Shown here piece by piece: positions 6,987 to 22,769 of a stretch of DNA of 27,189 bases. A model generated the notes under the pieces. That model was not told the DNA's origin. It was given only the letters and a program-made list of their open reading frames with translations, and ran no database searches. Each line of letters starts with the position of its first letter. Position 1 is the first letter of the stretch. Made by a program: the position numbers and the translations under genes. Source of the stretch: a virus; the IMG/VR virus record IMGVR_UViG_3300032273_000073, positions 1 to 27,189 of that record; one strand, given 5' to 3'.

Positions 6987-8303
6987 TTACTCCTGGAAGT
7001 TTTCTTTAACTTCATCCCAAGAATACTCTTGACCATCTCTAATTAGTGTTATATCCTCTTTACCTATTGCATATCTCTTTACTTCTACATCTACATACTT
7101 TGGATCAAATTCCATTAGGTATGCTGTTCTATCTATCTGATCGCAACTCATAAGAGTACTTCCACTTCCTCCAAACCAATCTACAACTAGATCTCCTGGC
7201 TTAGTATTATTTAAAATTAATCTAGCTAATAGCTTAAGAGGTTTCATTGTAGGATGCACATCATTTCTTATTGGTTTATCCTCTCTAATAACTGTTGAGT
7301 GTTGCTCTAATAGCTTTGTCATTTCTACAATGTGTTCTCTTAGTTCTTTTTTACCCATGCTATTAAGAGTTCCAGGTAGTTCTAGTACTGTATCTTGTGT
7401 GTAATCTTTAATAAAATAATGTGCTGCTCCTTCTTTCCATCCATAGAGTATTGGCTCATGTCTCCAATTGTAATCTTGTCTTGATAGATTGAAACCATTC
7501 TTAACCCATATGAGACATTGAGATATCTTTAGGTTAGCTTCTTTTAATGCTCCTCTAAATGCTTCTGTCTCTATGTCAGCATGGAATATATAATATGCTC
7601 CTCCTGGTTCCAGGTACTTATGCATATTCTTATAAAATCCCAATAGGAAGCTATAGAAATCTGTTGAACTCATATTGTCATTGATTATCTTCTTTCCATC
7701 ATCTGATTCATAATTTATGTTATATGGGGGATCAGTTATACATAGCCTAGCTTTATGACCATCCATTAATCTCTTAGCATCTTCCTTTGATGTAGAATCT
7801 CCACAAAGAACTTTATGTCTTCCTAATAGCCATAGATCACCTTGCTTTGAAAAAGGTTCTTTCTGTTCTTCTACTTCTGGTGCATCTATCTCTTCTATGT
7901 TTTCACTACTTTCTAGTTCCTCTTCAATCAACTTTTGTACTTCTTCAGTATCAAATCCAGTTAAATATGATTTATGTCCTAACGACTCTAGTTCTTCATA
8001 TAGTTTTTCAAAATCCCATTCACCTAGTTCAGCTGCTCTAGATTCTCCTATTCTAATTACCTGTATATCTTCTTCAGATAAATTTTCTATCTGGTAACAT
8101 TTAACTTCTTGAATCCCTAATTCTTTTAGTGCTATATATCTAGCAGGCTCTCCTACAATGGTATTATTGATATCAATAACCAGTGGAATATACTGACTAT
8201 AGTTCTTGATGAGGTTCTTATATAGTTCTACCTGTGCATCTGTATATACTCTTGAGCTATTAGCTAGTTTTAATTCTGATATATTTATAATGATTTGGTT
8301 CAT
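6987..8303 (-). CDS. ParB-like domain fused to beta-class DNA methyltransferase
   Basis: From the ATG at 8303, preceded by GGAGGAGGG, the product is 438 residues; an upstream in-frame ATG at 8345 lacks such a site. Residues 1-115 form a ParB/Srx-like domain (VYTDAQVELYKNLI, IVGEPARYIALKELG at 51-63). A methyltransferase domain follows with catalytic DPPY at 191-194 and the AdoMet-binding WFGGSGSTL at about 376-384; the order IV-TRD-I defines the beta class, modifying N6-adenine or N4-cytosine. Such fusions are common in phages and thought to protect phage DNA from host restriction or mark it for packaging. No cognate endonuclease is adjacent. The RLE/R motif of true ParB CTPases is replaced (GEPARY), so the domain is probably not a partition protein. 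Confidence 0.9.
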   Translation of the reverse strand: MNQIIINISELKLANSSRVYTDAQVELYKNLIKNYSQYIPLVIDINNTIVGEPARYIALKELGIQEVKCYQIENLSEEDIQVIRIGESRAAELGEWDFEKLYEELESLGHKSYLTGFDTEEVQKLIEEELESSENIEEIDAPEVEEQKEPFSKQGDLWLLGRHKVLCGDSTSKEDAKRLMDGHKARLCITDPPYNINYESDDGKKIINDNMSSTDFYSFLLGFYKNMHKYLEPGGAYYIFHADIETEAFRGALKEANLKISQCLIWVKNGFNLSRQDYNWRHEPILYGWKEGAAHYFIKDYTQDTVLELPGTLNSMGKKELREHIVEMTKLLEQHSTVIREDKPIRNDVHPTMKPLKLLARLILNNTKPGDLVVDWFGGSGSTLMSCDQIDRTAYLMEFDPKYVDVEVKRYAIGKEDITLIRDGQEYSWDEVKENFQE

Positions 8304-8433: not shown

Positions 8434-9570
8434 TTATTGACATGTTACTTTTTTTTCTTCCAAAAACCCGACATGTTTATGGCGTTTTTTAATAAAATCA
8501 AAGGTTAAATGCTTTTTGTAGTCACATTTAACTTCACACTCAATTAAGAGTAATTTATTTATAAATAATGATAATCTTTCAATGTTTCCAAAGCTTTCAC
8601 GGTATGGTGAACTTCTTATTTGGCTTTCTAATAATGCTATTTTCACTGTGCTCCTATATCTTTCTATCTGTCTTGTTGATTTATCACTATTTCTAGTTAT
8701 TATTGAATTTATAATTTTCTCATCGTAGATCCATTCTTCAAAGTCTCTCACCAGGTTAGATAGTTCTCTTGATTCAAAATTAGAAAATTTCTTTTTTAAA
8801 ATCTCATCGTTCCTGGATAACTCATTTACTATTAATTTAAATAATTTCTCTCCAATATGTTTTTTTACTGAATTTGAGATATCCCTTATAGTGAGATCAT
8901 TGACACTATTTGTCTGACACACTCTTTTAATTATAGATTGGGTTATCTTATGCTCTAATTTGATCAATGCACCTTTTTGCTTCTCTATGTTCTTCTTATT
9001 ATGTTCATGTGCTTTTGAGTATAGCTTCAGCTGCCATCCAGTCATGATCTTGAATATAAAACCTGTAGAATAGAATCTATCCATAGTTGTTCTGTAATTT
9101 AAATAGACCAGGCTATCTTTACTATCGTATTCCCTAGCTAAGGCCCTATAAAAGATCATAATTAAATTATTAAACTTATAGAATGAGCCTATATACTCCT
9201 GGATAGCTAGTTCAAAATAATCATAAAATAAATCATGAATAGTGATCTTATTGTCTAGGGATATTTCCTTTACTAAATTTAAGATCTTATCATCAACAAT
9301 TTTCTTTTCTATTTCTGATGTTAATGGGTATAGGTTAGTGGTAGCGTTACTTCTAGGATAGGAAAAATCTATTTTTATGGTAGATGTTTTATTTAAATGA
9401 CCTATAACCTTAATTTCGTTTATGTTTTCTTTTCCTATGGAGTAGTTTTGTGTATCTCCTAATATTTTTCTACCTAGGATATGACGGTACTTTTTTCGTA
9501 TTCCTATGTCTATTAACTCAATATGAGCATCGACTAATACCCATATAGAAGCTCTGTCTAGCCCTATCAT
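8434..9570 (-). CDS. Putative replication initiator resembling CRI/gpII-type rolling-circle proteins
   Basis: A 378-residue protein starting at an ATG preceded by AAGGAGGGG. The central segment (MTGWQLKLYSKAHEHNKK, then GALIKLEHKI) looks like the 'LKLYNKxxE...LRxE' core of filamentous-phage and plasmid rolling-circle initiators (Phage_CRI / Rep families). I do not see a clear HUH metal-binding motif in the N-terminal region, so catalytic competence is uncertain. An inverted repeat lies 33 bases upstream, as an origin or operator might. A phage with an O-like replication protein elsewhere would not need a second initiator, so this could be an acquired satellite or plasmid gene. A DNA-binding protein with another role is also possible. 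Confidence 0.42.
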   Translation of the reverse strand: MIGLDRASIWVLVDAHIELIDIGIRKKYRHILGRKILGDTQNYSIGKENINEIKVIGHLNKTSTIKIDFSYPRSNATTNLYPLTSEIEKKIVDDKILNLVKEISLDNKITIHDLFYDYFELAIQEYIGSFYKFNNLIMIFYRALAREYDSKDSLVYLNYRTTMDRFYSTGFIFKIMTGWQLKLYSKAHEHNKKNIEKQKGALIKLEHKITQSIIKRVCQTNSVNDLTIRDISNSVKKHIGEKLFKLIVNELSRNDEILKKKFSNFESRELSNLVRDFEEWIYDEKIINSIITRNSDKSTRQIERYRSTVKIALLESQIRSSPYRESFGNIERLSLFINKLLLIECEVKCDYKKHLTFDFIKKRHKHVGFLEEKKVTCQ

Positions 9571-9920: not shown

Positions 9921-9996
9921 CTTTCCTCCCTATCGGGTAATTGAGTTCCCACCATCTCAATATTTAAATAGTTTCCCTTTGATTGACTATTCCCCT

Positions 9997-10037
9997 AAAA
10001 AAAATAAAAGCCCTGAACAGCATTTCTACTGTCCAGG
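9997..10037 (-). terminator. Rho-independent terminator after the Com-like gene
   Basis: On the minus strand CCTGGACAG-loop-CTGTTCAGG (one G-U pair) is followed by TTTTATTTTTTTT, 14 bases beyond the stop at 10051. Confidence 0.9.
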
Positions 10038-10050
10038 ACTTCATGAGTCT

Positions 10051-10242
10051 CTAAATTACATTCTTTTTTATATAACCGCTTCTTATTTCTCCACAAGAAA
10101 CACATTTAAAAGTATATTTTGTTGATGTTATTGTAGCTTCTACATCACCATCAATTGATAATTCACCATTTTTTATAATTCCCATCATACGATTACATTT
10201 TTTACACCTTATTTTTTTTCCTTCATTCTTTAATTTAGACAT
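10051..10242 (-). CDS. Com-like zinc-finger protein
   Basis: A 63-residue protein from the ATG at 10242, which follows AGGAGGTAG; a frame-extending ATG at 10260 lacks such a site. IRCKKCNRMMGII and FKCVSCGEIRSGY are two CxxC knuckles separated by ~28 residues, the layout of Com-family zinc-binding proteins. In phage Mu, Com binds mom mRNA and switches on translation of a DNA-modification gene. Here the nearest modification gene is the ParB-methyltransferase, two genes downstream, so a link is possible but unproven. It ends at a strong terminator. Confidence 0.62.
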   Translation of the reverse strand: MSKLKNEGKKIRCKKCNRMMGIIKNGELSIDGDVEATITSTKYTFKCVSCGEIRSGYIKKNVI

Positions 10243-10277
10243 TCTACCTCCTAAATTCAATATTAAATGCTTATTAA

Positions 10278-10448
10278 CTACATACCGTTTAATATTTCTT
10301 TAATTTCAGATAGTGTTTTTAAACTTCCTCTATTAATAGCTTTTCTTAATCCCCAGGCTGATTTAAATTTCGAAAGGGTAACAAGTGTAGTAAAAGTGAC
10401 ATCTTTATCAATTAATTGTTTTTTAATTTTCTTCATATGTTCGCTCAT
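10278..10448 (-). CDS. Small protein, unknown function (56 aa)
   Basis: A short gene with a start at 10448 (GAGGTGAAATT ahead of the ATG) encoding MSEHMKKIKKQLIDKDVTFT ... LSEIKEILNGM. The N-terminal half is basic; SKFKSAWGLRKAINRGSLKTLSEIKEIL looks like a helix-turn-helix or helical DNA-binding segment. A matching promoter lies just upstream, and the Com-like gene follows 35 bases downstream, so these two probably form an operon. A plus-strand frame over the same stretch has no convincing start site. Confidence 0.62.
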   Translation of the reverse strand: MSEHMKKIKKQLIDKDVTFTTLVTLSKFKSAWGLRKAINRGSLKTLSEIKEILNGM

Positions 10449-10466
10449 AATTTCACCTCATAAATT

Positions 10467-10495
10467 ATATTACACTAAAAAAAGCTAATTAGCAA
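10467..10495 (-). promoter_or_regulatory. Promoter for the small-gene/Com operon, with palindromic operator
   Basis: TTGCTA (10495-10490), 17 bases, TAATAT (10472-10467) on the minus strand. The -35 box overlaps the perfect palindrome GCTAATTAGC (10484-10493), whose half-site recurs around the CI gene. Confidence 0.5.
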
Positions 10496-10521
10496 TAATT
10501 AATTTTAAATTATTTTAAAAT

Positions 10522-10555
10522 AAAAAAAACTTGGATATCTCACCAAGTTTTTTTT
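10522..10555. terminator. Strong bidirectional terminator ending the lysogenic/defence operon
   Basis: AAAAAAAACTTGG and CCAAGTTTTTTTT form a 13-base-pair stem with an 8-base loop, 12 bases after the stop at 10567. The symmetrical A and T runs let it work in both directions, insulating the defence operon from the promoter at 10495. Confidence 0.9.
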
Positions 10556-10566
10556 AATTACTTTTA

Positions 10567-10833
10567 TTATTTGTTTTGAGCATAAAATCCAATAGCTTTA
10601 TTTTTCATATCTTCAAGATTTTTAAACTTAGTATAGGCTTTAATTAAATTTTCTAAATGCTTTTCTTGCGTCATTCCTTTGCCAAGTTTAACATTAGCTT
10701 TTTCTTCAAACTCCTCCATTGATCTAAGAGTTGAATATTCTTTAAAAAATTTTTCTGAAAGTAGTTCCTCTGTTGAAATTTCACCATTGTCTAAAGCCTT
10801 CATAACAGTTTTTATAGCTAGTTTATCTACCAT
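10567..10833 (-). CDS. Small helical protein at the end of the defence operon, unknown
   Basis: 88 residues, predicted helical and charged (AIKTVMKALDNGEISTEELLSEKFF ... KNLEDMKNKAIGFYAQNK). GGAGGGG precedes the ATG. It lies 27 bases after the DUF5655 nuclease gene and before the operon terminator. It has no membrane segment. It could be an accessory or immunity partner of the upstream nuclease, but nothing in the sequence proves it. Confidence 0.65.
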   Translation of the reverse strand: MVDKLAIKTVMKALDNGEISTEELLSEKFFKEYSTLRSMEEFEEKANVKLGKGMTQEKHLENLIKAYTKFKNLEDMKNKAIGFYAQNK

Positions 10834-10860
10834 TGATACCCCTCCATATTTTGTAAATAA

Positions 10861-11766
10861 TTATCCTCCTACATTTTCAAAAGAAATTTTGATTAATTCC
10901 TTTGCTATCTCTAAATCTTTTTCTTTGGTTATATAAAATTGAAAATTTCCAGTCCCAAAATGACCTATATTTGTTACATCTCTTCCAACATCTTTCCATT
11001 TTTTTAACTCACTAGAAGTTAATTTTAAATTTATTATTATTCTTTCTTTTTGACATTCTAGACTTGTAAAATTTTTAGCTATTTTATATGCAACATAACG
11101 CTTCCTTGGAACTTCTTCCACTTCATCACTTAGATTAATAGTATAGTCCCTAATATCATAAAAAGCTTCTTTTAAACTATCACTTTTTAATATATTAGCG
11201 ATTCTTTCATATGTTCTAACAGGAGCTTCATTTTCTTTTTCATCTACATGAATTGTCTTATCTTTACATTTATTATTTTCTTTATTAATAAATATCTCCT
11301 CAAGATTAAACATTCCGTTTTCAAAGTTTTTATATTTCCAGAGTTCTATTGATTTATTCATAACTTTTACAGCATGAAGATCATATTTTTTATATCCTGG
11401 GGCAATACAAATAACTCTTATATTACTCCAATCAATATCAATGTATCCAAGCTGTTTGTTAACAGCCATTTGAAAATCTCCTTTATGGTCTTCTAACCAA
11501 GAAAGATAATATAGTGATTGATTAAGAAGGCTTGAAGATTCTTCTTTTTTATACTCAATTATCACAGGATTATTATCTTCAGATATAGCTATAGTATCTA
11601 TCCTTCCAGAATGAATGCTACCAGTATAAAACTCTGAAGCTACAAATTTACAATTAAATATTTCTTCTAAATTATTTTCAACTAATTGTTGAAGTTCTCT
11701 TTCTAGTGGAAAATTCTTTTGTTTTACTACATTAAGAACTCCATTTTCTTTATTGAATAATGGCAT
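10861..11766 (-). CDS. PD-(D/E)XK nuclease-like protein with C-terminal DUF5655 domain
   Basis: A 301-residue protein. The N-terminal half has a restriction-endonuclease-like core: GRIDTIAI (Asp57) followed by VIIEYK (Glu71, Lys73), after a helix with ERELQQLVENNLEEIF. The C-terminal ~100 residues (RKRYVAYKIAKNFTSLE, RDVTNIGHFGTGNFQFYI) match DUF5655. Such proteins are found across bacteria and usually lie near mobile or defence genes; DNA cleavage is inferred from the motif. AAAGGAGG precedes the ATG. The gene follows dinD by 26 bases and precedes the small helical gene, in the same run as the type III restriction genes. Whether it acts on phage DNA or in repair is unknown. Confidence 0.8.
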   Translation of the reverse strand: MPLFNKENGVLNVVKQKNFPLERELQQLVENNLEEIFNCKFVASEFYTGSIHSGRIDTIAISEDNNPVIIEYKKEESSSLLNQSLYYLSWLEDHKGDFQMAVNKQLGYIDIDWSNIRVICIAPGYKKYDLHAVKVMNKSIELWKYKNFENGMFNLEEIFINKENNKCKDKTIHVDEKENEAPVRTYERIANILKSDSLKEAFYDIRDYTINLSDEVEEVPRKRYVAYKIAKNFTSLECQKERIIINLKLTSSELKKWKDVGRDVTNIGHFGTGNFQFYITKEKDLEIAKELIKISFENVGG

Positions 11767-11792
11767 AAAACCTCCTTTTCAATATATATCAC

Positions 11793-12614
11793 TTAATTAA
11801 TTTTTTCTTCTTTTTCTAGTTTTTTTATACTCTTTTCTGGTGTTTCTAGTTCTTCTGGCATTGTTCCACCTAATTCTTCTATTGTCTCCCTCACTTTTTT
11901 ACCGACTTCAAAGTGAGCGTTATTTGCATTTTTTTTACCTTTGATTTCATCCCTTTTTAATTTTTCTTCTGTCTGTGTTGCTCTAAATAGATTAGCGGCT
12001 AATTCAGTACTTCCCATATGGTCTAATATTTGTTCACTTTTTTTTAAATTCTTTTTTTCTTTTATATCTTTTGCAGTTAATCCACCATATAGACCTCTAT
12101 ATCCGTGATTTTGAAAAATTGCATATTCTTTTGATGTTTCAACACCTGCATTTTTAGCTGCTTCTACCAAGGTTTTATTATGTTCTTTAAGCTCTGTTCT
12201 TATCCCTAGTCTTTTTTTATCTTCATCTAATTGCTCAAATTGTTCTGTTAATTCTTGTTTTCTAGTTTGAGTAGCAAAATATGTTTGACCTAATGCAATA
12301 ACTTCTTTTTTAGGATTTCCATTTTGTACAATTAAATAGCAAGCGTACCTAGATAGGACATAATCTTTAACTTCTCGTCTAGACACCCCAGTTTCTACTA
12401 TTTTGTTGACTTCAACAAAATGGTCTAAAATAGGATTCCCACTATTTATACATGCCTCTTTTGCTTTTTCTATAATTTTTGTAAAATTTCTCCATTCTGA
12501 ATATTCCAAAAGTGTTTGTAACTCTCTAGCATTCCAAAATTCTTCTTCATACTCATTTATACGTTTTATTTCCTCGAAAATATTCGATCTATATCTTTGA
12601 ATGTCATTCATCAT
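11793..12614 (-). CDS. dinD: DNA-damage-inducible protein D (DinD)
   Basis: A 273-residue protein matching DinD from end to end: an N-terminal Bro-N-like segment (FWNARELQTLLEYSEWRNFTKIIEKA), YVLSRYACYLIVQNGNPKK, then the helical LGQTYFATQTRKQELTEQ, EYAIFQNHGYRGLYGG and a C-terminal region ending in THMGST-like and HFEVGKKVRETIEELGG segments. In Escherichia coli DinD is an SOS gene product that disassembles RecA filaments. Its presence beside restriction and nuclease genes suggests protection from, or response to, DNA breakage caused by defence. A second ATG one codon later is equally possible. It lies 113 bases after the TIR gene. Confidence 0.88.
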   Translation of the reverse strand: MMNDIQRYRSNIFEEIKRINEYEEEFWNARELQTLLEYSEWRNFTKIIEKAKEACINSGNPILDHFVEVNKIVETGVSRREVKDYVLSRYACYLIVQNGNPKKEVIALGQTYFATQTRKQELTEQFEQLDEDKKRLGIRTELKEHNKTLVEAAKNAGVETSKEYAIFQNHGYRGLYGGLTAKDIKEKKNLKKSEQILDHMGSTELAANLFRATQTEEKLKRDEIKGKKNANNAHFEVGKKVRETIEELGGTMPEELETPEKSIKKLEKEEKIN

Positions 12615-12634
12615 CTTTTACCTCACTTTATTTT

Positions 12635-12709
12635 TTATATTTTTATCCACCTTTCATCATCTAAAATTACTTTTACATTCCAAAATTTATTAAATTCATC
12701 ACTTGCTCC
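12635..12709 (-). pseudogene. Possible short gene remnant between TIR and dinD
   Basis: An open stretch of about 24 codons reads GASDEFNKFWNVKVILDDERW and ends in a stop at 12635. It has no ATG and is preceded by an in-frame stop. Its protein-like composition hints at the tail of a deleted gene, but chance is a fair alternative. Confidence 0.2.
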
Positions 12710-12727
12710 TATTTTTATTCATCAAAT

Positions 12728-13528
12728 TTAAAGGTTATTCATCTCTATCTCATATCCACAAGCTTTTAGTTCTTTACAAACTGCTTGTTGCCAATATCCA
12801 TTATTTAACGATGAATAGACCAATCCACTTATATCATTTGGTGTTTCAATCTCTCCTTTTACTAAGGCATGGACATTTTCACGTCCTAACTTTGCCATTA
12901 AATATCCATGTTCAAAAACAACGTTTTGACGTGCTCTATCTTTAGCTCTTGTGCTGTTCTTTTCATGATGCCCTCTTCCTTGATCACATGGAGTATATAA
13001 AACTATGCCATAATGGGCTTCTTTAGCATAATGTTCAATTTTTTCTATAATTGTCATCCCGGCACTAGCCTGCTCATGCAATATAATAGCCTCTAATCCA
13101 ATTTTTTCTAAAAATCTTGCTACTTCTAATTTAGTTTCATTATCTCTACCGTGGACAATAAAAACTTTAGTTTTCATCTCTTTATTTGAAGTGATTTTCT
13201 CCTTTTGTTTTTCAATTTTTTTTATAGGTATACTTTCTCCAAATTCAAGTAAATCTTGTATTTCAGTAAACTCATTTCTTAAAAATGTTCTTCTTTCAGC
13301 ATAAGTTGAAAACTCATTTTTAATAAAATCCCAAAATGTTTCTAAATTCCTATTTACTCTTACCCAACTTGGAATACTTTCTTTAAGATTTGAACTTCTC
13401 AAAAAATAATTTCTTAAATCCATGTATTCATCATTTGAAGCGGTTCCTCCTGTTGAAAAAGAAATTAATAATTTTATAAAATATTCAATTTTTTCATAAT
13501 CATTTTTTAAGTAATTTATAGTTTTCAC
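12728..13528 (-). CDS. TIR-like nucleotide-binding protein (CAP12/PycTIR-like domain)
   Basis: A 266-residue protein with an N-terminal ~110-residue helical region of unknown type and a C-terminal TIR-like domain (120-255): KVFIVHGRDNETKLEVARFLEKIGLEAIILHE, ASAGMTIIEKIE (Glu162 in the catalytic position), YGIVLYTPCDQG, RARQNVVFEHGYLMAKLGR and NDISGLVY. Domains of this type hydrolyse NAD+ or bind nucleotides in bacterial defence. It begins with GTG, overlapping the Res stop as TAGTG, with AGGAGGAG upstream, so it is translationally coupled to the restriction subunit. No cyclase or other second-messenger enzyme is in the window, so a sensing role through the N-terminal region is inferred. Confidence 0.85.
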   Translation of the reverse strand: MKTINYLKNDYEKIEYFIKLLISFSTGGTASNDEYMDLRNYFLRSSNLKESIPSWVRVNRNLETFWDFIKNEFSTYAERRTFLRNEFTEIQDLLEFGESIPIKKIEKQKEKITSNKEMKTKVFIVHGRDNETKLEVARFLEKIGLEAIILHEQASAGMTIIEKIEHYAKEAHYGIVLYTPCDQGRGHHEKNSTRAKDRARQNVVFEHGYLMAKLGRENVHALVKGEIETPNDISGLVYSSLNNGYWQQAVCKELKACGYEIEMNNL

Positions 13529-16464
13529 TACTTCACTCCTCCTACTATTCTACTTATCTCTTCATTTTTAAATTGTGCCTTAAATCTAATATTTAAATGT
13601 CCTTCAAAAAGTTTTTCTACACATTTTATTTTCATTTTTTCTTCCGAAGATAGGCCGATTTTTTCTTTCCCCTTTGATTCTATTACAAGATTAAGAGCTT
13701 CTTTTCCATCTTTATATTTAACTACATAGGCAAAGTCTGGAGAATAACTTCCTCCACCAATAACAGGTATTTTTATACTATTTTTAGGTATTTTAGAGAA
13801 TACTACTATTTCATTTATATGTTCTATAATATTTCCTCTTTCTATTTCGGAATCATAATACAACTCATTAAAAAGATAACTGCTATCTACTTGAACTGCT
13901 TTATCAAATAATACTCCTACTTCTGAGGTTCCTATATCTTTCAAAGGATTCCCTTTAGGATCTGTAAGTGCTGTAGGATGGATAGTAGTATTGACACTAT
14001 CATAAGATATAAACATATTATGTAATGATTTCTCTATTAGATAATCTCTATAATACTTTTGGATCTCTCTAATAGTTTTTCTACTCAAATAATTATTTAA
14101 ATCAAAATCATTTTTGAATACTCCTGGTTTAACTTCCACTTTACTATTATTTTTTAAATCAATAAACATACTGTGTAGCATATTAAATGGAACTTTCATT
14201 AGTTTTTCTAACTCCAAAAGAAATTCTTGATAAGTTAAATTAGAAATACTTACTGCATTATATACACTTTCTGTACTTTTTATTTCTTGAAAATCAATGT
14301 TATCTTCATCCTTTTTCATTTTAAATGATTTTAGTTCAAAACCACTTTTTTCAAAGTGTCCCTCTTCCCAAAATTTAATAATCATTTGATTTAATAATTC
14401 TTGCTGAACTTCATTATTTTTAAAGTCATAAGTAATCAAGACTTTCTTGTTTAATTCTTCCCATAACCTTTTAAATTCTTGATATTTTTCTTGCCTTAAA
14501 GTAACCTTGCCTTTTTTATCCTTGCTATTCATTACTTTCCCAGCTTTTAATTTACCGTCAAAAACTAATGGATATAGGTTTTGAATTTTTTCAAATCCAT
14601 TTTCCATAAATTTTTGCTTTCTATCTATAATTTCTAGTTTTCTTAATTCGTCAAAAAGATCATCTTTGTTTTTATTATAAGTTTTTGCTATCTCTTCTAA
14701 TAGCTCTTCATTTAATTCTTTTAATGCCTCTCCTAGAATAGATCCACTATTAATATCGTTTTGTAATTTACTCACAAAATCTTTTTCCTCAAAATCTACA
14801 AAATAATGTAAAAAATGTTCCCTATCTGTTACTCTGTTCATAAATTCATTTACAGGTATTCTTAGTCCTCTTCCGACTTCTTGTAATTTATTGGTCTCAC
14901 TACCACTACCTCTTAACTTACAAATAACAAAGACATTGGGATTATCCCACCCTTCTCTTAGTGTCCATTTAGAGAAAATAAATCTTCTAGGGTTATCAAG
15001 GTCTAATAATTTTTCTTTATCATGTAGTATCTCATTAACTTCTTTTTCTATTTTGTCGTCTTTCCCAGTATTATCTTTTGAAAAATAACCACCATGACAC
15101 TTTTTAATATCTTTTAAACTATTTTCTAAATAATTTTTATATTCTTGATTTTGAGTACTTTTAACACGTCTTTCCATAGCATTTTTTAATTCTTTTTCAA
15201 AATATATTCTTATGTGTTCTTGAGTTTTATCGTCATTTCTATATGATTCGATGGAATCTATAAAGAATAATGACATAGTTTTTATTCTTGGATAAGTCGT
15301 CATGTTTTTTTCTTCTATCTCAAAATGTTTTTCTATCGATTCTTTTATCATCTTTTCTTGTAAAATTTCACTATACGAATATGGATTTATCTTGTCTTTT
15401 TTCTTTAACTCCATTCCATTTGAAAGTAATACTCTAGTTTTATTCATTTCCGCTATTTTAAGCCCAGCCATTTCAGGATGGATTAATGAGAAATCATCCT
15501 TTTTATTTAATACGTGAGGTGTTGACTTCCCTACTTCATTTTTATAGCTGAATGTTGCTTCTTTTGTATCGGATTCTTTCAACATTATTATTTCATTTTT
15601 TCCATCTTTATTCTCTTCTATACTAACTTCAATACCCTTTACAAGATCATTGTTAAAAGCTTTTACGGCATTTAATGAATACATTAGATCATAATATTTT
15701 TTATCGAATGTAGCACCATATCTAACCATAAATTGAGGATTAAACTTCATCATATTTTTCCAAGTTTTATTATCACTTTTAAATTTATGAGGCTCATCTA
15801 TTATAATTACTGGCTTAGTTGCTGATATTCCATCTGTACAATTTGTAAATCTATCAAGCAATGTTCTATCATATTGTTCTTCTTGTATAGTTGGACTATT
15901 TATCATACCTTGGTTAATTACCAGCGCATAGATTGTATTTTTATCCATCTTAGAGCCTTCAATAAACTCTCTTACCTTTGATGGGAATGGTCTTTTCCCT
16001 GTAGGTTTTGCCATACTTTCTACAACTAAACAATTAATTTGCTTTTTATAAATATTTTTAAAATGAAGTCTAGATGACTCTCCTTTTAAGAAATTAACTG
16101 TTCCAGCTTTAATTGAAAGAGTAGGAACTACAATTATAAATTTATTTAGCCCATATTCTCTATTTAATTCAAACATAGTTTTTGTATAAGTATATGTTTT
16201 ACCTGTTCCTGTTTCCATATGGATATCTAAAATTAAAGGATCCTTCTCTTTATAATCTTTTTTTAGTGAATTTAAATCATGATCTTTTCTGATTGTATTT
16301 ATATTATCATCTATAATTTTTCTATTTTCTAAGTCTTCTGCAAGATTATAATTACTGTGATAATTTACTTCAGACCTTCCTGTTCCTCTAAAGACTTCTA
16401 CAATACTCTGTATGGCTTCGTTTTGATGTTCTAAATTGCCTTCAAAATTAAGATGTTTTCCCAT
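13528..16464 (-). CDS. Type III restriction enzyme, Res subunit
   Basis: A 978-residue ATP-dependent translocase and nuclease. Walker A METGTGKT at 83-90, the DEAD-box variant IIIDEPHK at 221-227, later SF2 motifs (FIFSKWTLREGWDNPNVFVIC, KLQEVGRGLRIPVN), and a C-terminal PD-(D/E)XK nuclease (PDF at 909-911, VIESKGK with Glu929 and Lys931). Full-length for the family. With Mod it forms a complex that cuts DNA bearing two oppositely oriented unmodified sites. The ATG overlaps the mod stop (TAATG). No frameshift or missing catalytic motif is visible, so the enzyme should be active. It is followed directly by the TIR-like gene. Confidence 0.93.
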   Translation of the reverse strand: MGKHLNFEGNLEHQNEAIQSIVEVFRGTGRSEVNYHSNYNLAEDLENRKIIDDNINTIRKDHDLNSLKKDYKEKDPLILDIHMETGTGKTYTYTKTMFELNREYGLNKFIIVVPTLSIKAGTVNFLKGESSRLHFKNIYKKQINCLVVESMAKPTGKRPFPSKVREFIEGSKMDKNTIYALVINQGMINSPTIQEEQYDRTLLDRFTNCTDGISATKPVIIIDEPHKFKSDNKTWKNMMKFNPQFMVRYGATFDKKYYDLMYSLNAVKAFNNDLVKGIEVSIEENKDGKNEIIMLKESDTKEATFSYKNEVGKSTPHVLNKKDDFSLIHPEMAGLKIAEMNKTRVLLSNGMELKKKDKINPYSYSEILQEKMIKESIEKHFEIEEKNMTTYPRIKTMSLFFIDSIESYRNDDKTQEHIRIYFEKELKNAMERRVKSTQNQEYKNYLENSLKDIKKCHGGYFSKDNTGKDDKIEKEVNEILHDKEKLLDLDNPRRFIFSKWTLREGWDNPNVFVICKLRGSGSETNKLQEVGRGLRIPVNEFMNRVTDREHFLHYFVDFEEKDFVSKLQNDINSGSILGEALKELNEELLEEIAKTYNKNKDDLFDELRKLEIIDRKQKFMENGFEKIQNLYPLVFDGKLKAGKVMNSKDKKGKVTLRQEKYQEFKRLWEELNKKVLITYDFKNNEVQQELLNQMIIKFWEEGHFEKSGFELKSFKMKKDEDNIDFQEIKSTESVYNAVSISNLTYQEFLLELEKLMKVPFNMLHSMFIDLKNNSKVEVKPGVFKNDFDLNNYLSRKTIREIQKYYRDYLIEKSLHNMFISYDSVNTTIHPTALTDPKGNPLKDIGTSEVGVLFDKAVQVDSSYLFNELYYDSEIERGNIIEHINEIVVFSKIPKNSIKIPVIGGGSYSPDFAYVVKYKDGKEALNLVIESKGKEKIGLSSEEKMKIKCVEKLFEGHLNIRFKAQFKNEEISRIVGGVK

Positions 16465-18467
16465 TAGTATCTCACCTCAACTTCTATATCTGCTCCCTTT
16501 TTATTATTGTAATTCTGAATGTTTTCTAGTAAATCAGCACGATACTTACCGTTGGTATTAGTAAATCCATAAACAACTAATTTATTAATTTTAAATTCAG
16601 GATCATTATCTATTTTTTCTATAATTCCTTTCAATATTTCATTTGAATTAATAGAATCTATGAGGTATAAAATTTCTCCAACTTTATAAGCAACATAGAT
16701 ATATGATCCAGTTCCATCTCCACCAACTACTTTTTTCTCCCATGAAAATTTGATCTTTTCTATTTTTGTATTTAAGAAATTTCCATCTTGTAATTTATAT
16801 GTATGGACTAGGTCTAGTTTATCATTATGAATAAATGAGATAGGTTCATGCAGTTTTATCTCTCTTGTAAACTCTTTCATTTCTTCTAGCTCTTTGATTT
16901 TATTATCTATTTTAAATATTTTAAACCCTAATTTATTCTCTAATTCTTTTCTATTAAATCCTTCCTCTTTTTTGTTTTCTAATTTATTTAACATATAAGT
17001 ATTAGCTCTTTTAACTCTTTCTATTCCAATAGAAGTAATGTTAGTAGGCAGATCGTTGTCAATACAAAAATTATAGGCTTCTTTGGAATTTTTAGGATTT
17101 ACTTCTTCTTCTAATTGAATCATTATCCATTTCCTATGCCCTCCATCTTCAGTGTTTAATCTATTAACAGCATGAGCTGTAGTTGCTGACCCTGAGAAAA
17201 AATCTAAAACAATACCATCTTTGTCTCCTCCAACCTTTGTTAATTTTTCTATTAAATATGGAGATTTTGGAAATGACATCACATTTTTTTCAAATAAATT
17301 TTTTATTGATTTTTTACCATAATCATTATTTATTTCTTTATCAATCCAAACAGATTTTATTAGAGTTGTCGCTATCTCTCCATTTTCTCCACAGAGGTAG
17401 TCTTTCCGATAGATTCTCCATTCTTCACCTAGTTTTTCTGCTACCAATAAATCAGATTCTTTAGTCACTTTATCTTTTCCCCAAGTCCAACAAGTTTTAA
17501 CATCTTCGCTTGTTATAGGATAAGTTATTTCTGTAAATTCTTCATTATTTTCACTTGATACAGTATAATTTTTTGGATTTATATATAAAGGATAATACAA
17601 ATTAGGACGAGTTTGTGGATTAAAAGCTTGGTTTCTATTTCTAAGCCCCGTTAAACGGTATTTTCCATATTGATCTTTTTTATTATATTCTTTTATCATA
17701 TCACCAGATTTCTCAATTCCAGACATAGTTTTATTAGTACCTTCGTCTTTCGCATAAATTAGTATGTATTCATTGGTTTTAGCAACATATTTATCTAAAT
17801 TTCTTCCTCTAGGATTTAGCTGAACCGCTAATTTAGCTATAAAATTTTCTTCTCCAAAAATTTCATCACACATTAATTTTAATTGTGCGACTTCATTATC
17901 ATCTATTGAAATGAATATTACTCCATCTTCTGTTAATAACTTCCTAGCCAGATATAATCTTGGGAACATAAATGTTAACCACGCTGAATGAGAAGATGAA
18001 CTTCCCTCCCATTTTAAGATTCTTTCTTTTTCATCTTCCTCTATTACCTTTGCTTCTACTAGTTTTTCTAATTCTTTTTTACTAAAATCTCTATTGTCAT
18101 TGTATACAAACTCTCCACTTTTTGTGTTATATGGGGGATCTATATAGATCATCTTTATTTTTTCTCTATACCCATTGTTTAGATGCCTCAAGACCTCTAA
18201 ATTATCTCCTTTGATATATATATTTTCACTATCCTTATTTTTTTCTTTTTTATTATGTTCTACATCTTCTCTAATCATAGTTCTAGCGTCTACTTGAGCC
18301 AAAGCTCTAGCATATGATTTCCCAAGCCAATTTAAACCGTATGAATCCTTAAATAATTTTGCTTCTGGGCTAATTATTTCTTGAAACTTTTCTATATTAA
18401 AATTTCCATCTCTATCAAAGCATTCTGAAAATTCTCTTTTTATAATTTCTAATTTACCATTATCCAT
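16464..18467 (-). CDS. Type III DNA methyltransferase, Mod subunit
   Basis: 667 residues from the ATG at 18467, which has GGAGAAAATAAT upstream; a longer frame start at 18503 lacks a comparable site. Catalytic DPPY at 110-113 (IYIDPPYNTKSGEFVYND) and AdoMet-binding DFFSGSATT at about 422-430 give the beta-class order, with the target recognition region between them (about 200-400). It recognises a non-palindromic site and methylates N6-adenine on one strand. The central region is the part that sets specificity, and I cannot predict the site. The ATG of res overlaps its stop. It lies 16 bases after the AbiH-like gene. Confidence 0.93.
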   Translation of the reverse strand: MDNGKLEIIKREFSECFDRDGNFNIEKFQEIISPEAKLFKDSYGLNWLGKSYARALAQVDARTMIREDVEHNKKEKNKDSENIYIKGDNLEVLRHLNNGYREKIKMIYIDPPYNTKSGEFVYNDNRDFSKKELEKLVEAKVIEEDEKERILKWEGSSSSHSAWLTFMFPRLYLARKLLTEDGVIFISIDDNEVAQLKLMCDEIFGEENFIAKLAVQLNPRGRNLDKYVAKTNEYILIYAKDEGTNKTMSGIEKSGDMIKEYNKKDQYGKYRLTGLRNRNQAFNPQTRPNLYYPLYINPKNYTVSSENNEEFTEITYPITSEDVKTCWTWGKDKVTKESDLLVAEKLGEEWRIYRKDYLCGENGEIATTLIKSVWIDKEINNDYGKKSIKNLFEKNVMSFPKSPYLIEKLTKVGGDKDGIVLDFFSGSATTAHAVNRLNTEDGGHRKWIMIQLEEEVNPKNSKEAYNFCIDNDLPTNITSIGIERVKRANTYMLNKLENKKEEGFNRKELENKLGFKIFKIDNKIKELEEMKEFTREIKLHEPISFIHNDKLDLVHTYKLQDGNFLNTKIEKIKFSWEKKVVGGDGTGSYIYVAYKVGEILYLIDSINSNEILKGIIEKIDNDPEFKINKLVVYGFTNTNGKYRADLLENIQNYNNKKGADIEVEVRY

Positions 18468-18483
18468 ATTATTTTCTCCTTTT

Positions 18484-19533
18484 CTATTTATATTGTTTTT
18501 CAATAAATTCTACATTAGGGATTTTTCTTCCACGAATACTGTCTCCATAAATAGTTACAGTCTTATATCGTTCTCCTAATAAACTTTTTATTTTTTGCTT
18601 TCCACTCTCAAAAGAATTAGTATAGTTATAAATTTTTACTTTTAAAACCTCTAATGGAATAGTTGTACCTATTGGAAGAAATCCATTTTCATCATGCATT
18701 TTACAATTATTTAGAATTAACTGATTTACAAAATCATCACTATTTCCTATTGAATAACCTATTATAACAATCTCTGATATTTTCTTTTCTAACGGTTTAA
18801 AAAAATCTTGAACTATAGGAACTAATTCTTTATTGTGCATTCTCTCAAAAATAGTATCTTTTGAAAACACTTTATCTTCATATTTTACATGAACATCTGA
18901 TGAATCTATATGAATTGGATATTTCACGTCATGATAATAACCAATAACAGGAAAAAGACCGTCTTTTATATTTCCGTGTATACATAAAGTGTTTAATTTA
19001 TCACTATAAAATTTATGAGTGTTTGTATAATTAAAGTTAAGAATATGCGCACCATCATTAAATTCTTTTTTTAATTCATAATTGGTAGAGGTTACCTCAT
19101 GAATTATCTTAGTTTTTAAATATTTATTAAAATAATCTGTAAAATCTAAAGATAAACTAAAAAAAGTATCTAGTGTATATTTAGTTTGTATTTCCTCTAT
19201 TTTTATTTTTAGATTTTCTCTTACATAATCTCGCTCTTTTTTAGCAGAAATGATTTCCGCCGCACTCTTAATTCTTTTAACATTGTCATAGGTATCTAAT
19301 TCTTTTTTTAGATTATTTTTTTCTTCAATTTCCAAATATTCTTCATGGAATATTTCTTCAATATTAGCCCAACTTAAATAAGCAGTTTTATCCGAGTCAT
19401 TCATATGCTTTTTTATAATTTTATCTACCTTTGTCACAAATTCTTTATCTTGACAATAATTTTTAAAATTATCGAAAGATGTCTTTAGTCCATGATGTAA
19501 ATCAAAACCATTCCCTAGTACTATTAATTTCAT
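18484..19533 (-). CDS. AbiH-like abortive infection protein
   Basis: A 349-residue protein that opens MKLIVLGNGFDLHHGLKTSF, the classical AbiH family N-terminus, and carries HILNFNYTNTHKFY, LCIHGNIKDG and IVIIGYSIGNSDDFV in order. AbiH proteins block phage growth after infection by an unknown mechanism. GGGAGAG precedes the ATG. It starts 39 bases after the CI repressor stop and is followed by the mod gene at 16 bases, so it is the first defence gene of the run. There is no signal peptide or membrane segment; cytoplasmic action is expected. Confidence 0.87.
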   Translation of the reverse strand: MKLIVLGNGFDLHHGLKTSFDNFKNYCQDKEFVTKVDKIIKKHMNDSDKTAYLSWANIEEIFHEEYLEIEEKNNLKKELDTYDNVKRIKSAAEIISAKKERDYVRENLKIKIEEIQTKYTLDTFFSLSLDFTDYFNKYLKTKIIHEVTSTNYELKKEFNDGAHILNFNYTNTHKFYSDKLNTLCIHGNIKDGLFPVIGYYHDVKYPIHIDSSDVHVKYEDKVFSKDTIFERMHNKELVPIVQDFFKPLEKKISEIVIIGYSIGNSDDFVNQLILNNCKMHDENGFLPIGTTIPLEVLKVKIYNYTNSFESGKQKIKSLLGERYKTVTIYGDSIRGRKIPNVEFIEKQYK

Positions 19534-19572
19534 TCTCTCCCTCTAATTATATTAAATATTTATTTGTCCTAC

Positions 19573-20283
19573 CTACTTACACCATGTCTCTTCATGATAT
19601 GTTTTTATTACTCTTCCTTCACATGTCAGATTTTCACTCTGCAATATTATTATTGCTGGAACATCTGGATTAAAAGATATTAGTTGAATAATATTCTGAC
19701 TATCTATTAATAATTGTTTTATAAAGGTCTCCTCATTATATGTAAATACACAAACTTTTTTATTCAATTCTTTTGGATCCTCACATAAAGAAGGGTCTAC
19801 CAATGCAACTGAACCATCAAAGATAGATTTTCCTCCTATTCTAGTCATAGAGTCCCCTTCTACCTTTACCACAAATCTACCTTCTGCATAGTCTTCTAAA
19901 GGTATAACATATTCTTCATCAATCATATTTGATAAATTTATATATCCTGGACCAGCACTTGCAGACCCATACATCGGAACAGTAGCACTTTCAGTAGCTA
20001 CTTTAGAATTAATTCTTTTTACATTTGATGGAATACTTAAATATCCTATATCATTGAACATTTTAATTACATCAAGGTCATATATTTTACATAGACTTTT
20101 TAATAATATTGCATTTGGAACCTTTCTCTCTGCATTTTCTAATCTCTGAACATCACTTTTGCTAATCTTTAGATTTAAATAATCTAATTTTATTTTTACC
20201 TGCTCTAATGTTAAATTTTTATTTGAACGACCGCTTTTTAATAATTCTCCTAATTTAATCATTTGGTCATTATTTAATTTCAT
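19573..20283 (-). CDS. CI/LexA-like repressor with S24 autocleavage domain
   Basis: A 236-residue protein. An N-terminal XRE-type helix-turn-helix (about 8-75, TLEQVKIKLDYLNLKISKSDVQRLENAERKVP) binds operators. The C-terminal S24 peptidase domain has the Ala110-Gly111 cleavage pair in GSASAGPGYI, catalytic Ser145 in VEGDSMTRIG and Lys189 in TFIKQLL. Contact with activated RecA would trigger self-cleavage and prophage induction. AGAGGTGG precedes the ATG. It is transcribed leftwards into the AbiH gene with only 39 bases between, so downstream defence genes probably share its promoter. Confidence 0.9.
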   Translation of the reverse strand: MKLNNDQMIKLGELLKSGRSNKNLTLEQVKIKLDYLNLKISKSDVQRLENAERKVPNAILLKSLCKIYDLDVIKMFNDIGYLSIPSNVKRINSKVATESATVPMYGSASAGPGYINLSNMIDEEYVIPLEDYAEGRFVVKVEGDSMTRIGGKSIFDGSVALVDPSLCEDPKELNKKVCVFTYNEETFIKQLLIDSQNIIQLISFNPDVPAIIILQSENLTCEGRVIKTYHEETWCK

Positions 20284-20306
20284 AAAACCACCTCTTGTAC
20301 ATTCTA

Positions 20307-20416
20307 TAGCTTTTTAGCTACTTTTAAAAGATAAATAAAAATAATTGTTGCTTTAAAGCTAAAAAGATAATATACTAAATAATAAATAGTCTATTAGCAA
20401 CAGCATGAAAGCTAAT
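20307..20416. promoter_or_regulatory. Candidate operator cluster upstream of CI
   Basis: Symmetrical elements sharing GCTAA/TTAGC-like halves: TAGCTTTTTAGCTA (20307-20320), GCTTTAAAGC (20350-20359, continuing GCTAA) and ATTAGC...GCTAAT (20393-20416). Autoregulation of CI is a reasonable inference; the individual pentamers are common in AT-rich DNA. Confidence 0.42.
20372..20400 (-). promoter_or_regulatory. Candidate CI promoter
   Basis: Minus strand TTGCTA (20400-20395), 17 bases, TAGTAT (20377-20372). The -35 sequence is TTGCTAAT, the same as in the promoter at 10495. It would give a leader of about 80 bases. Confidence 0.42.
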
Positions 20417-20448
20417 TAAATATTTATTATAAAATAAAATTATTTAAT

Positions 20449-20476
20449 TAAAAAAAGAGCAGAAAATTCTACTCTT
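20449..20476 (-). terminator. Terminator after the small XRE gene
   Basis: Minus strand AAGAGTAG-AATTTT-CTGCTCTT followed by TTTTTTAATT. It separates the small regulator from the CI transcription unit. Confidence 0.85.
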
Positions 20477-20505
20477 AAAATATTTTTTAAACTCTAAATA
20501 GTATG

Positions 20506-20538
20506 GTTCAATACGTGCCTTGGAAACTCTTATTGAAC
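20506..20538. repeat. 8-bp inverted repeat in the XRE 3' region
   Basis: GTTCAATA (20506-20513) and TATTGAAC (20531-20538) around a 17-base spacer. There is no T-run next to it. Role unknown. Confidence 0.45.
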
Positions 20539-20581
20539 TGTACCATTGAGACTTTAATTTGTTATTTCATAAATTTTGAAA

Positions 20582-20797
20582 TTACTCTGAGTCTTTCTCT
20601 GGAATATACTCAATTAAATCTTGGACATTACAATTAAATGCTTTACATAATTTTTCTAGGGTATCTAAATCTAGCCTTTTTATTTTTTCGTGATACAGCG
20701 ATGATAAAGTTGGTCTACTTAAACCTGTCACTTCTGATAATTTAGAAATATTATATTTATATTTCCCCATAAGATCACTTAATTTGATTTTCATCAT
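20582..20797 (-). CDS. Small XRE-family regulator (Cro/YozG-like)
   Basis: A 71-residue protein made almost entirely of one helix-turn-helix domain: SKLSEVTGLSRPTLSSLYHEKIKRLDLDTLEKLCKAFNCNVQDLIEY, the compact XRE type of YozG and phage Cro-like proteins. Two ATGs are adjacent; GGGAGG lies 11 bases from the first, a long spacing. A promoter with a 17-base spacer lies upstream. Position between the CI gene and the divergent early promoter suggests it is the second half of the lysis-lysogeny switch, binding the phased repeats across the intergenic region. Confidence 0.82.
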   Translation of the reverse strand: MMKIKLSDLMGKYKYNISKLSEVTGLSRPTLSSLYHEKIKRLDLDTLEKLCKAFNCNVQDLIEYIPEKDSE

Positions 20798-20829
20798 AAT
20801 TTATTATACCTCCCATTTATTTATACTTA

Positions 20830-20858
20830 ATAATACTACATTATTAGCTCCTAAACAA
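20830..20858 (-). promoter_or_regulatory. Candidate promoter of the small XRE gene
   Basis: Minus strand TTGTTT (20858-20853), 17 bases, TATTAT (20835-20830). A TTAGC pentamer (20844-20848 on the plus strand) lies in the spacer. Confidence 0.45.
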
Positions 20859-20890
20859 CTATTTAGTAAAGGTAGTTTATCATTTTGTTG

Positions 20891-20975
20891 TATTAGTTTC
20901 GTTTTTTAACTTGACAAATTGTAAAACTAATATTACACTAGTAAAAACTAATAGTTCTTTATGTGAAACTAGTTT
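20891..20975 (+). promoter_or_regulatory. Phased operator-like repeats over the early promoter
   Basis: AAACTAATA at 20924-20932 and 20945-20953, and palindromic AAACTAGTTT at 20966-20975, start exactly 21 bases apart (two helical turns). An inverted copy TATTAGTTT is at 20891-20899. The first copy lies in the -35/-10 spacer. Confidence 0.6.
20911..20939 (+). promoter_or_regulatory. Early rightward promoter
   Basis: TTGACA (20911-20916), 17 bases, TACACT (20934-20939); a consensus -35 box at ideal spacing, about 70 bases ahead of the gene at 21007. Confidence 0.65.
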
Positions 20976-21006
20976 AGTATAAATTATTTTACTTCGGGGG
21001 TATAAA

Positions 21007-21300
21007 ATGTATAAAAAAGATATAGAAAAATTTCTAGGCTTCCTTGGTGAGCTAGAAGCTAATGGAAAATTAAAAGATGATACTTTAGAAAAAGAGTTTT
21101 CACGGTTATTTAATAAGATTTTCAATTTGATAAAGGAAACAGGTGATAAAAATCTTGAAAACCTCCTTATAGAATTTGAAGGTTTAAATGTTTCATTTAT
21201 CGAGAAAGTAAAAAAAGATTACTTTCTTTATGGCTCTATTGGAAAAAATGTTTGTGAATGTTGCGTCTTGGAAGATATAAAAGCTGGTGATTTATCATGA
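21007..21300 (+). CDS. First early gene, unknown helical protein
   Basis: 97 residues, charged and helical (KDIEKFLGFLGELEANGKLKD ... NLENLLIEFEGLNVSFIEKV) with a short Cys-rich segment NVCECCVLEDIKAG near the C-terminus that could bind a metal. GGGGGT precedes the ATG. It is the first gene after the phased early promoter. Its stop overlaps the next start (ATGA). A minus-strand frame over the same stretch lacks a start site. No family is recognised. Confidence 0.68.
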   Translation: MYKKDIEKFLGFLGELEANGKLKDDTLEKEFSRLFNKIFNLIKETGDKNLENLLIEFEGLNVSFIEKVKKDYFLYGSIGKNVCECCVLEDIKAGDLS

Positions 21301-21410
21301 GTTTTAAAGATTTTAGAAAATTAGATATAAAAAAATATTTAGAAAAATATGGAAATATTAGCCTTTCAGAATTAATTGAAATTTTAGAAGGTGAGAGCCA
21401 TGTTGAGTAA
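21297..21410 (+). CDS. Very small early protein, unknown (37 aa)
   Basis: Coupled by ATGA to the preceding gene and overlapping the next start. The product, MSFKDFRKLDIKKYLEKYG ... LEGESHVE, is charged with two helices. Translation relies on coupling, since there is no strong site of its own. Confidence 0.5.
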   Translation: MSFKDFRKLDIKKYLEKYGNISLSELIEILEGESHVE

Positions 21411-21564
21411 AACTATCTATGTCATTGTATGTAATGGTGTTCCTGTGGTGGCATTTGAAGATTATTTGGTAGCTGAGGTGGCTTTGCGTGAAAGGAATGC
21501 TTCACAGGGCATCACGTTTTCTTTGGAGCCTTGTGATTTAGAGTTGATGGTGGATAAAGTATAA
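21400..21564 (+). CDS. Very small early protein, unknown (54 aa)
   Basis: GGTGAG lies seven bases before the ATG at 21400. The product MLSKTIYVIVCNGVPVVAFE ... DLELMVDKV has a beta-rich start and a mixed end. Its codons (GTG, TTG, GAG, CGT) are noticeably GC-richer than those of its neighbours, hinting at separate origin. Confidence 0.6.
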   Translation: MLSKTIYVIVCNGVPVVAFEDYLVAEVALRERNASQGITFSLEPCDLELMVDKV

Positions 21565-21712
21565 AAACTGATAAATAAAAAGAAGGAGAAGTTCTCCGTT
21601 TAAAGACAACTTCTTCCCTCTTATTTATTACAAACTTCTCTCTCCGTGCTGATTATATGATATAAGTAACAAAAAGTAAAGATTTTTTTTATTTTTAATT
21701 TGTTATTTGAAT

Positions 21713-21775
21713 GTTGGGCACTCAGGGGTCCTTGGATCCCGACATTGAAATAATAAAAAACTAGGAGTGTCCAAC
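21713..21775 (+). promoter_or_regulatory. Structured leader element before the replication gene
   Basis: GTTGGGCACTC (21713-21723) pairs with GAGTGTCCAAC (21765-21775, one G-U) and encloses a second hairpin GGGGTC-CTTG-GATCCC (21725-21740). It sits 26 bases before the ATG at 21801. There is no T-run after it. It could be an antisense or protein-controlled leader, an operator or part of an origin. The approximately 150 bases to its left (21565-21712) hold only a loose ATAAATAA...TTATTTAT dyad (21573-21633). Confidence 0.5.
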
Positions 21776-21800
21776 AACCTTCTGGAAAGGAGTGTGAATT

Positions 21801-22769
21801 ATGAAAGATACAATATTTCAAATAAGGCAAGATATAGCTTTAGAAATGAAAGAAAAATATAAGCTAAATATTGAAGATTTTATTTTAATTCGAAAAATAG
21901 GAGATTTTAGTTTATCTGCCGATACCATTGAGATTATAAAAGATGAAAAAGTTTACCACTGGATAAGTTATGACGCGATCCAAAAAGATTTTCCTCTGTT
22001 ATATCCAACAGTAGAAGCTATAAAAAAAAGGATTCATAGGATGACTAAAAAAGGTCTTCTAGAGAGTAAAGCTCATATAGTAAAAAAAGAAGATTTAGAA
22101 AAAAGTGAATTTAATACACCAGGAACATTTTCAATTTTGAGGTTAGAAAAAGAAACTAGAAAATTATTTAATTCAAAAGTCATTTTACCCCCAGGACAAA
22201 ATGACGCACCCTCTAGGACAGAATGTCCTAGGGGTGGGGACAAAATGGGGCGACCCCTGGGACAGAATGGCGTTAACAAAGAACCCCGAGAAAAGAACCC
22301 CAAGAAAAGAACTCCTAAAAAAGAAGTAGTAGCAGAAAAGAAAGATCCTGCCACTGCTCCTGAAGATATATTTTTTAAAGAACTAAAAACCATTCTTTCA
22401 GAAGCCAGTATTAAAAATCATAATTCTAATACTTTAAAAAATATTAAAAATTATTCTAATGGTGATATCAATGAAGTTAAAAAAGTAATTGAGTTTATAA
22501 AATTAAAAAGTAAAAATATGAACTCTAAAGTCTTAGTGGCCATATTAAAAGATAAAGATCATCAGATAGTTGAGCCAGTAGATATAAAAAAAGCTACTAG
22601 AACAGAAAAAATAGATTTTATGATTGAAAAATTAGGAGAATTTAAAATCAGATCTATGAGAAATACTATTTTAAAAGAGATCGGTTGTGAATGCCAAGGT
22701 GTAGATGATGATCTGGGTAATCAATTATGTAAAAAATATAATAAATTAAATACTCAAGGGGGAATGTAA
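21801..22769 (+). CDS. Replication initiation protein, O-like, with internal iterons
   Basis: A 322-residue protein. Residues 1-120 resemble the winged-helix DNA-binding domain of phage and plasmid initiators (VYHWISYDAIQKDFPLLYPTVEAIKKRIHRMTKKGLLESK). A short linker at 128-157, rich in Gly, Pro and Arg, is encoded by four 22-base repeats. A Lys-rich stretch and a helical C-terminal half (185-322) follow, where helicase-loader contacts would be expected. Iterons inside the initiator gene are the arrangement of lambda O and several theta replicons. GGAGTG precedes the ATG. The protein resembles these initiators in layout only; no family name can be assigned with confidence. Confidence 0.7.
   Translation: MKDTIFQIRQDIALEMKEKYKLNIEDFILIRKIGDFSLSADTIEIIKDEKVYHWISYDAIQKDFPLLYPTVEAIKKRIHRMTKKGLLESKAHIVKKEDLEKSEFNTPGTFSILRLEKETRKLFNSKVILPPGQNDAPSRTECPRGGDKMGRPLGQNGVNKEPREKNPKKRTPKKEVVAEKKDPATAPEDIFFKELKTILSEASIKNHNSNTLKNIKNYSNGDINEVKKVIEFIKLKSKNMNSKVLVAILKDKDHQIVEPVDIKKATRTEKIDFMIEKLGEFKIRSMRNTILKEIGCECQGVDDDLGNQLCKKYNKLNTQGGM
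22194..22273 (+). repeat. Four 22-bp iterons (candidate origin)
   Basis: GGACAAAATG at 22194 and 22238 and GGACAGAATG at 22216 and 22260 start exactly 22 bases apart. The period is not a multiple of three, so the repetition is not made by repeated amino acids and points to DNA-level selection. The stretch is markedly GC-rich for this genome. Confidence 0.82.
22281..22322 (+). repeat. Three 14-bp direct repeats beside the iterons
   Basis: GAACCCCGAGAAAA (22281), GAACCCCAAGAAAA (22295) and GAACTCCTAAAAAA (22309) are tandem 14-base units, again not a multiple of three. Confidence 0.65.

Follow-up and report, generated by a model that had tools for sequence, protein, structure and literature searches.

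Gene order and terminators at the locus

In the analysed window, a 27,189-base virus record from IMG/VR, eight genes follow one another on the minus strand. A CI-type repressor with an HTH and an S24 domain (PF00717; 19573..20283; family search and alignment) comes first, and behind it lie the genes for an AbiH protein, the type III restriction-modification (R-M) proteins Mod and Res, a TIR protein, DinD, a DUF5655 protein and a protein of 88 aa. The coordinates and families of all eight, as named in the original prediction, were confirmed by their positions and by family searches. In transcription order from CI the intergenic gaps are 39, -20 (16 if mod starts at ATG 18467), -1, -1, 113, 26 and 27 bases, which agrees with the earlier statement that only the gap before dinD, with 113 bases, exceeds 39 bases. 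A plausible ribosome site is present at most of the eight genes. According to the ORF list, the plus strand of the cluster carries only short ORFs, all overlapping a gene or a junction between genes.

A shared strand by itself says little for an operon, since the late genes below the cluster have that orientation too. In the cluster part of the window, a search for terminators (stem of 8 pairs or more, with 6 or more T in 8) gave three minus-strand sites and no others, at 20455-20476, 10524-10553 and 10007-10042; the expectation was 0.13 per dinucleotide-shuffled 13 kb. The first of these (9 pairs and a T run) lies on the minus strand ahead of CI, and the second, which is readable on both strands, closes the cluster after its last gene; the unit from CI to the 88-aa gene is thus exactly flanked. 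Within this stretch no minus-strand terminator with a stem of at least 8 pairs was found. The first terminator behind CI lies where the original prediction had placed it (10522-10555), and no such terminator was found between CI and AbiH or mod, where it would have spoken against the proposed operon. The defence genes stand directly downstream of CI with no terminator in between, which is the arrangement of rexAB and Tha. Promoter-like matches occurred at chance level (80 in the scan versus 77 in shuffles), so that the scan is uninformative on internal promoters.

Cargo genes

The AbiH-family abortive-infection protein is encoded at 18484..19533 (PF14253, 85 bits; PADLOC AbiH, 34 bits). The methyltransferase Mod (16464..18503, likely start ATG 18467; PADLOC MTase_III, 509 bits) has intact catalytic motifs (DPPY, FFSGSAT), as has the endonuclease Res (13528..16464; PADLOC REase_III, 967 bits; Walker A GTGKT, DEPH, PDF...ESK); with these motifs, the two form a type III R-M pair. 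The TIR protein (12728..13528; PF10137, 134 bits) is of the CAP12/Pyc type, has an intact FEHG motif and finds its best match in the models of the PADLOC candidate family PDC-S35. No cyclase family match was found in the cluster, whereas CBASS and Pycsar have a cyclase beside the TIR effector. The idea that the TIR protein works together with the type III R-M system was rejected, since TIR relatives in other phages stand without mod and res.

DinD (Bro-N; 11793..12614; NF008573, 414 bits) belongs to the PADLOC candidate family PDC-S13 and is 66% identical to DinD of E. coli, for which inhibition of RecA filaments has been reported (Uranga 2011, as cited in PMC4457935). The nuclease-like DUF5655 protein (10861..11766; PADLOC candidate PDC-S18, 339 bits; PF18899) has an intact D...EYK motif. 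The last gene (10567..10833) codes for the 88-aa protein, which has a homologue with 59% identity in the hotspot of the related prophage G006; its AlphaFold model is helical at a pLDDT of 50. PDB sequence searches with AbiH, TIR and DUF5655 gave no match.

Repressors and predicted CI operators

By alignment, CI has the residues for self-cleavage, i.e. the GDSM serine, the lysine and an Ala-Gly cleavage bond; in its homologues from two related prophages, G007 and G009, the S24 residues are partly missing. Upstream of CI a second regulator, a 71-aa protein of the HTH_26 Cro/C1 type (20582..20797, minus strand; PF13443, 78.6 bits), lies opposite the early genes, with the divergent promoter region between them. 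It is 56% identical to the regulator at 8961-9182 of the Fusobacterium phage Funu1 and is its orthologue. Between the HTH_26 gene and CI stands the terminator at 20455-20476, so that CI has a transcription unit of its own. The CI homologues of G007 and G009 are likewise placed behind an HTH_26 gene; in the relatives G002, G004, G005 and G006 a CI-type protein sits at the switch itself, together with a small divergent Cro-like partner.

Two further observations were made here. Directly behind the HTH_26 gene, at 20486-20557 (minus strand), the window contains a possible hairpin (GGTACAGTTCAATA..TATTGAACCATAC) and possibly a small RNA; the region is 73% identical to L075 18786-18863, and similar sequence is found in L070 at about 7760-7830. 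In G002, a second S24 peptidase-like protein without HTH is encoded directly behind CI (L021 3970-4419, minus strand), and similar pairs are found in L052 (2126-2560) and L038 (347-769).

A promoter-like site for CI (TTTAAA-16-TAGAAT; 20301..20328, minus strand) was identified by consensus match only. The dyad TWGCTNNNNAGCWA is found twice in this promoter, at 20307 and 20348, and the promoter region of the next operon contains a copy with one mismatch (10482-10495). The first copy is predicted operator 1 (TAGCTTTTTAGCTA, 20307..20320), which overlaps the promoter spacer and the -10; the second, found by dyad and matrix search, is predicted operator 2 (TTGCTTTAAAGCTA, 20348..20361). An operator matrix trained only on the few CI-promoter sites of G007 and G009 gave its three highest scores anywhere in the window at 20307, 20348 and 10482. 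Cross-trained matrices found their best place at 3284, just behind the cargo, in G007, and at 11152, in the post-cargo promoter, in G009. The post-cargo sites were reached in 3, 0 and 6 of 500 regional shuffles for the window, G007 and G009, respectively. Beside the predicted operator at 10482..10495 of the window, the first gene behind the cluster is a 56-aa HTH-like ORF (10278..10448, minus strand); by eye, similar ORFs exist in G007 and G009 (L070 3295-3510, L072 11169-11387).

The promoters ahead of the HTH_26 genes were not enriched for CI sites (93, 435 and 120 of 500 shuffles); in the early promoter of the window the best CI-site score was 7.7, the value reached by 93 of the 500 shuffles. 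The weak CI-promoter sites of G009 were not significant with the cross-trained matrix. No operators common to the CI/Cro and post-cargo regions were found in G002 and G004-G006, and a CI search of viral contigs and scans of genome contigs gave no match.

Neither CI nor a predicted CI operator is thus located at the divergent early promoter, where the HTH_26 gene occupies the place. The view that CI is the prophage repressor of the early switch is not supported; it looks like a second, autoregulated repressor. Because of where the predicted operators fall, CI probably regulates its own gene and the operon behind the cargo, and not the early promoter.

The overlap of operator 1 with the predicted -10 region favours CI autorepression, without proving it. 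Autorepression would predict that CI cleavage in SOS raises defence; the earlier proposal that it lowers defence is therefore unsupported. An SOS effect on defence could thus go either way; the literature on LexA and SOS in Fusobacteria contained nothing decisive.

Tentatively, the whole cluster could be damage-inducible: CI would repress itself, and its RecA-stimulated cleavage would briefly raise CI, DinD and the defences and open the next operon. Besides the position of operator 1 on the predicted -10 region, the intact S24 residues and Ala-Gly bond of CI point in this direction, as does the presence in the operon of dinD, a damage-inducible gene in E. coli. However, CI could also be an activator of its own promoter, like lambda CI at PRM, and the S24 residues are incomplete in the G007 and G009 homologues. 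Moreover, in the closest experimental precedent, Tha, the cI operon falls on induction (PMC11087260). On balance we consider damage induction of the cluster less likely than not. An extended form of it has little probability, namely that the S24 repressor runs a self-contained damage-inducible regulon. It would repress its own defence operon and the next operon, damage from infection or restriction would raise the defences and release the late side, and DinD would damp RecA and reset CI in a Hex-like manner.

The same site in related prophages

Relatives were found via the phrog_36664 protein (8434-9570 in the window) and the large terminase; they share ancestry and are not independent of each other. 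We compared the interval from the regulators to the late block, which consists of a g9669-like gene, phrog_36664 or a 340-aa protein, mostly a ParB-methylase, and the terminases. Synteny of the site is kept in G001, G002, G004-G009, G011, G013 and Funu1. A megablast search against phages gave no match.

The comparison of gene order in related prophages, which the original prediction had proposed as a check, showed that the same slot behind the repressor holds another defence set in almost every relative. G002 carries CI, the second S24 protein, HsdM, HsdS, a PD-Lambda-3A-like protein, DUF4238, HsdR and FRG, i.e. type I R-M plus FRG. PARIS-like AriA/AriB are present in G001, where the contig end leaves only the AriAB end of the unit covered. 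The cargo of G005 consists of PD-Lambda-5 A and B, DUF4062 and an AAA protein, that of G006 of two ThsB-type (Thoeris-type) TIRs, a TIR-TM protein, KAP, DUF4062 and the homologue of the 88-aa protein. A SocA/Panacea protein was found in G007, AbiD and a helicase in G008, Fic in G009 and, by sequence only, a HigBA-like pair in G011; the intervals of G013 and Funu1 contain no recognised defence genes, that of Funu1 being nearly empty. The cargo thus differs among the relatives and includes known defence families, as is characteristic of a prophage defence hotspot.

In G004 the cargo (L075 8761-14312, minus strand) is untyped: it comprises an 842-aa ATPase bearing two HATPase domains, a 566-aa protein of unknown type and a 419-aa methylase. 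The 842-aa and 566-aa proteins have no PADLOC match, and the cargo is a candidate new defence module.

Every relative that was scanned has a strong terminator after its cargo, either directly behind the last cargo gene or just before a conserved leader. In G002, G005 and G007 no terminator was found between CI and the cargo end; terminator-like sites lie inside the cargo of G004 and G006 and within the CI coding sequence of G009.

The edges of the variable region are sharp. Nucleotide identity of the window to five relatives ends at 9996-10010 each time, where the terminator 10007-10042 has its T run. On the right side it resumes at 22306, within an early-region gene, for G002, G005 and G006, and later for G004. 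Between these edges only one 80-base patch and the 88-aa gene are kept; all the rest of the block is exchanged. The alignments indicate that regulators and cargo form one exchangeable block, about 10,010-22,305.

The left edge (9921..10042, minus strand; terminator search and alignment) comprises this terminator and the leader before the late genes. In six phages the leader is about 90 bases long and always stands behind a strong terminator and before the g9669-like gene. In the window it contains two possible hairpins, AAATAGTT..AACTATTT and TTGAG..CTCAA, and has no Rfam match; it could be a control element of the late operon or a recombination edge. The phrog_36664 protein (8434-9570, minus strand) is conserved at the hotspot edge in one branch; in another branch a 340-aa protein that looks different takes its place. 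It has no Pfam match and is possibly a replication protein. Within the late genes, on the opposite strand, a Cys-rich 63-aa ORF (6072-6263, plus strand) resembles, by eye, small Ada-like metal-binding domains; similar ORFs occur in the same place in relatives (L009 11346, 11748 and 12739; L075 2157; L077 18527; L022 609).

Interpretation of the cluster

With fair assurance we interpret the cluster as a defence hotspot in an exchangeable regulator-plus-cargo block of Funu1-related fusobacterial prophages, in which CI and the cargo would form one unit whose level is set by CI. This interpretation builds on gene content, synteny, the swapping of content, the terminators and the operator pattern, all of which can be read from the sequences; co-transcription, operator binding and activity in defence would be expected from them. 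In a lysogen, CI and the cargo would be transcribed from the CI promoter, with CI itself setting the level, and the resident virus would probably arm its host through the transcription unit of its repressor. CI would also bind the promoter just behind the cargo, from which the late-side genes start; a separate repressor, the HTH_26 protein, would handle the early promoter. The cargo modules would act independently, as a stack in the hotspot. Type III R-M would restrict unmodified DNA, mod being transcribed before res; AbiH, the TIR protein and the DUF5655 protein would provide second-line responses, probably of abortive or nuclease type, and DinD may act on RecA. The core of the original prediction, a CI-headed defence unit, is retained: the unit is bounded by terminators, it is repeated with other defence sets in relatives, and Tha is a precedent for defence driven by the cI promoter.

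Alternatively, the modules could be mere neighbours with promoters of their own and expression unrelated to that of CI. In other phages, TIR relatives are found apart from the cluster partners, the plasmid relatives of the DUF5655 protein and DinD that were inspected stand without the others, and the 113-base gap before dinD would be the likeliest place for an internal promoter. Yet the other gaps do not exceed 39 bases, no internal terminator is present and terminators stand at both ends, which makes this alternative unlikely. That the eight genes constitute one new defence system of cooperating parts, the composition pointed out in the original prediction, is highly improbable and was rejected: contiguity speaks for it, but the set is repeated in no related prophage, only the 88-aa gene recurs, with other neighbours, and TIR, DUF5655 and DinD relatives are found elsewhere without their partners. 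The comparison of relatives argues instead for a stack of independent modules in a hotspot.

Comparison with known systems

The genes rexAB of lambda and hex of 434 are co-transcribed with the repressor from PRM, and the window resembles them in that lysogenic genes would be part of the repressor transcript. It differs from them in extent, as these are one or two small genes without a restriction system. Hex blocks the RecA-stimulated cleavage of the 434 repressor (PMC3564112). In the S. aureus phage 80alpha, the defence gene tha lies downstream of cI, is driven by the cI promoter in the lysogen and is lowered on induction (PMC11087260). The location downstream of cI is the same in the window, where expression from the CI promoter is predicted. 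However, Tha is an HEPN RNase whose gene is accompanied by an antisense inhibitor gene, ith, whereas the window has about five modules over 9 kb and no recognised antisense inhibitor.

In the P2/P4 hotspots, as in the prophages compared here, a fixed position of the prophage holds varying defence genes, among them R-M and PARIS; in K139-like (P2-like) Vibrio phages such a hotspot adjoins cI (PMC9122126). This Vibrio hotspot lies between cI and the integrase, whereas the hotspot of the window lies between the repressor and the late genes; it also belongs to another phage family and host phylum, and in the window repressor and cargo are inside the same variable block. Funu1 (KR131710) shares with the window the order of HTH_26 regulator, variable interval, phrog_36664, DNA methylase and terminase, but its interval has no recognised defence genes. 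In open-access papers we found no description of the fusobacterial hotspot.

Such genes behind or next to cI are thus already known from rexAB, Tha and the Vibrio hotspot; what is new is a fusobacterial example in a new virus family. Fusobacterial prophages thereby gain a defined, sharp-edged hotspot for collecting defence systems. Because repressor and cargo lie in one exchangeable block, the choice of the defence set is tied to the choice of the repressor, and a heteroimmune swap would change the defences simultaneously. Compared with the known systems, two features are more unusual: repressor and cargo are exchanged together as one block, and predicted operators flank the cargo on either side. 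These operators open the coupling of lysogeny and defence to a direct test.
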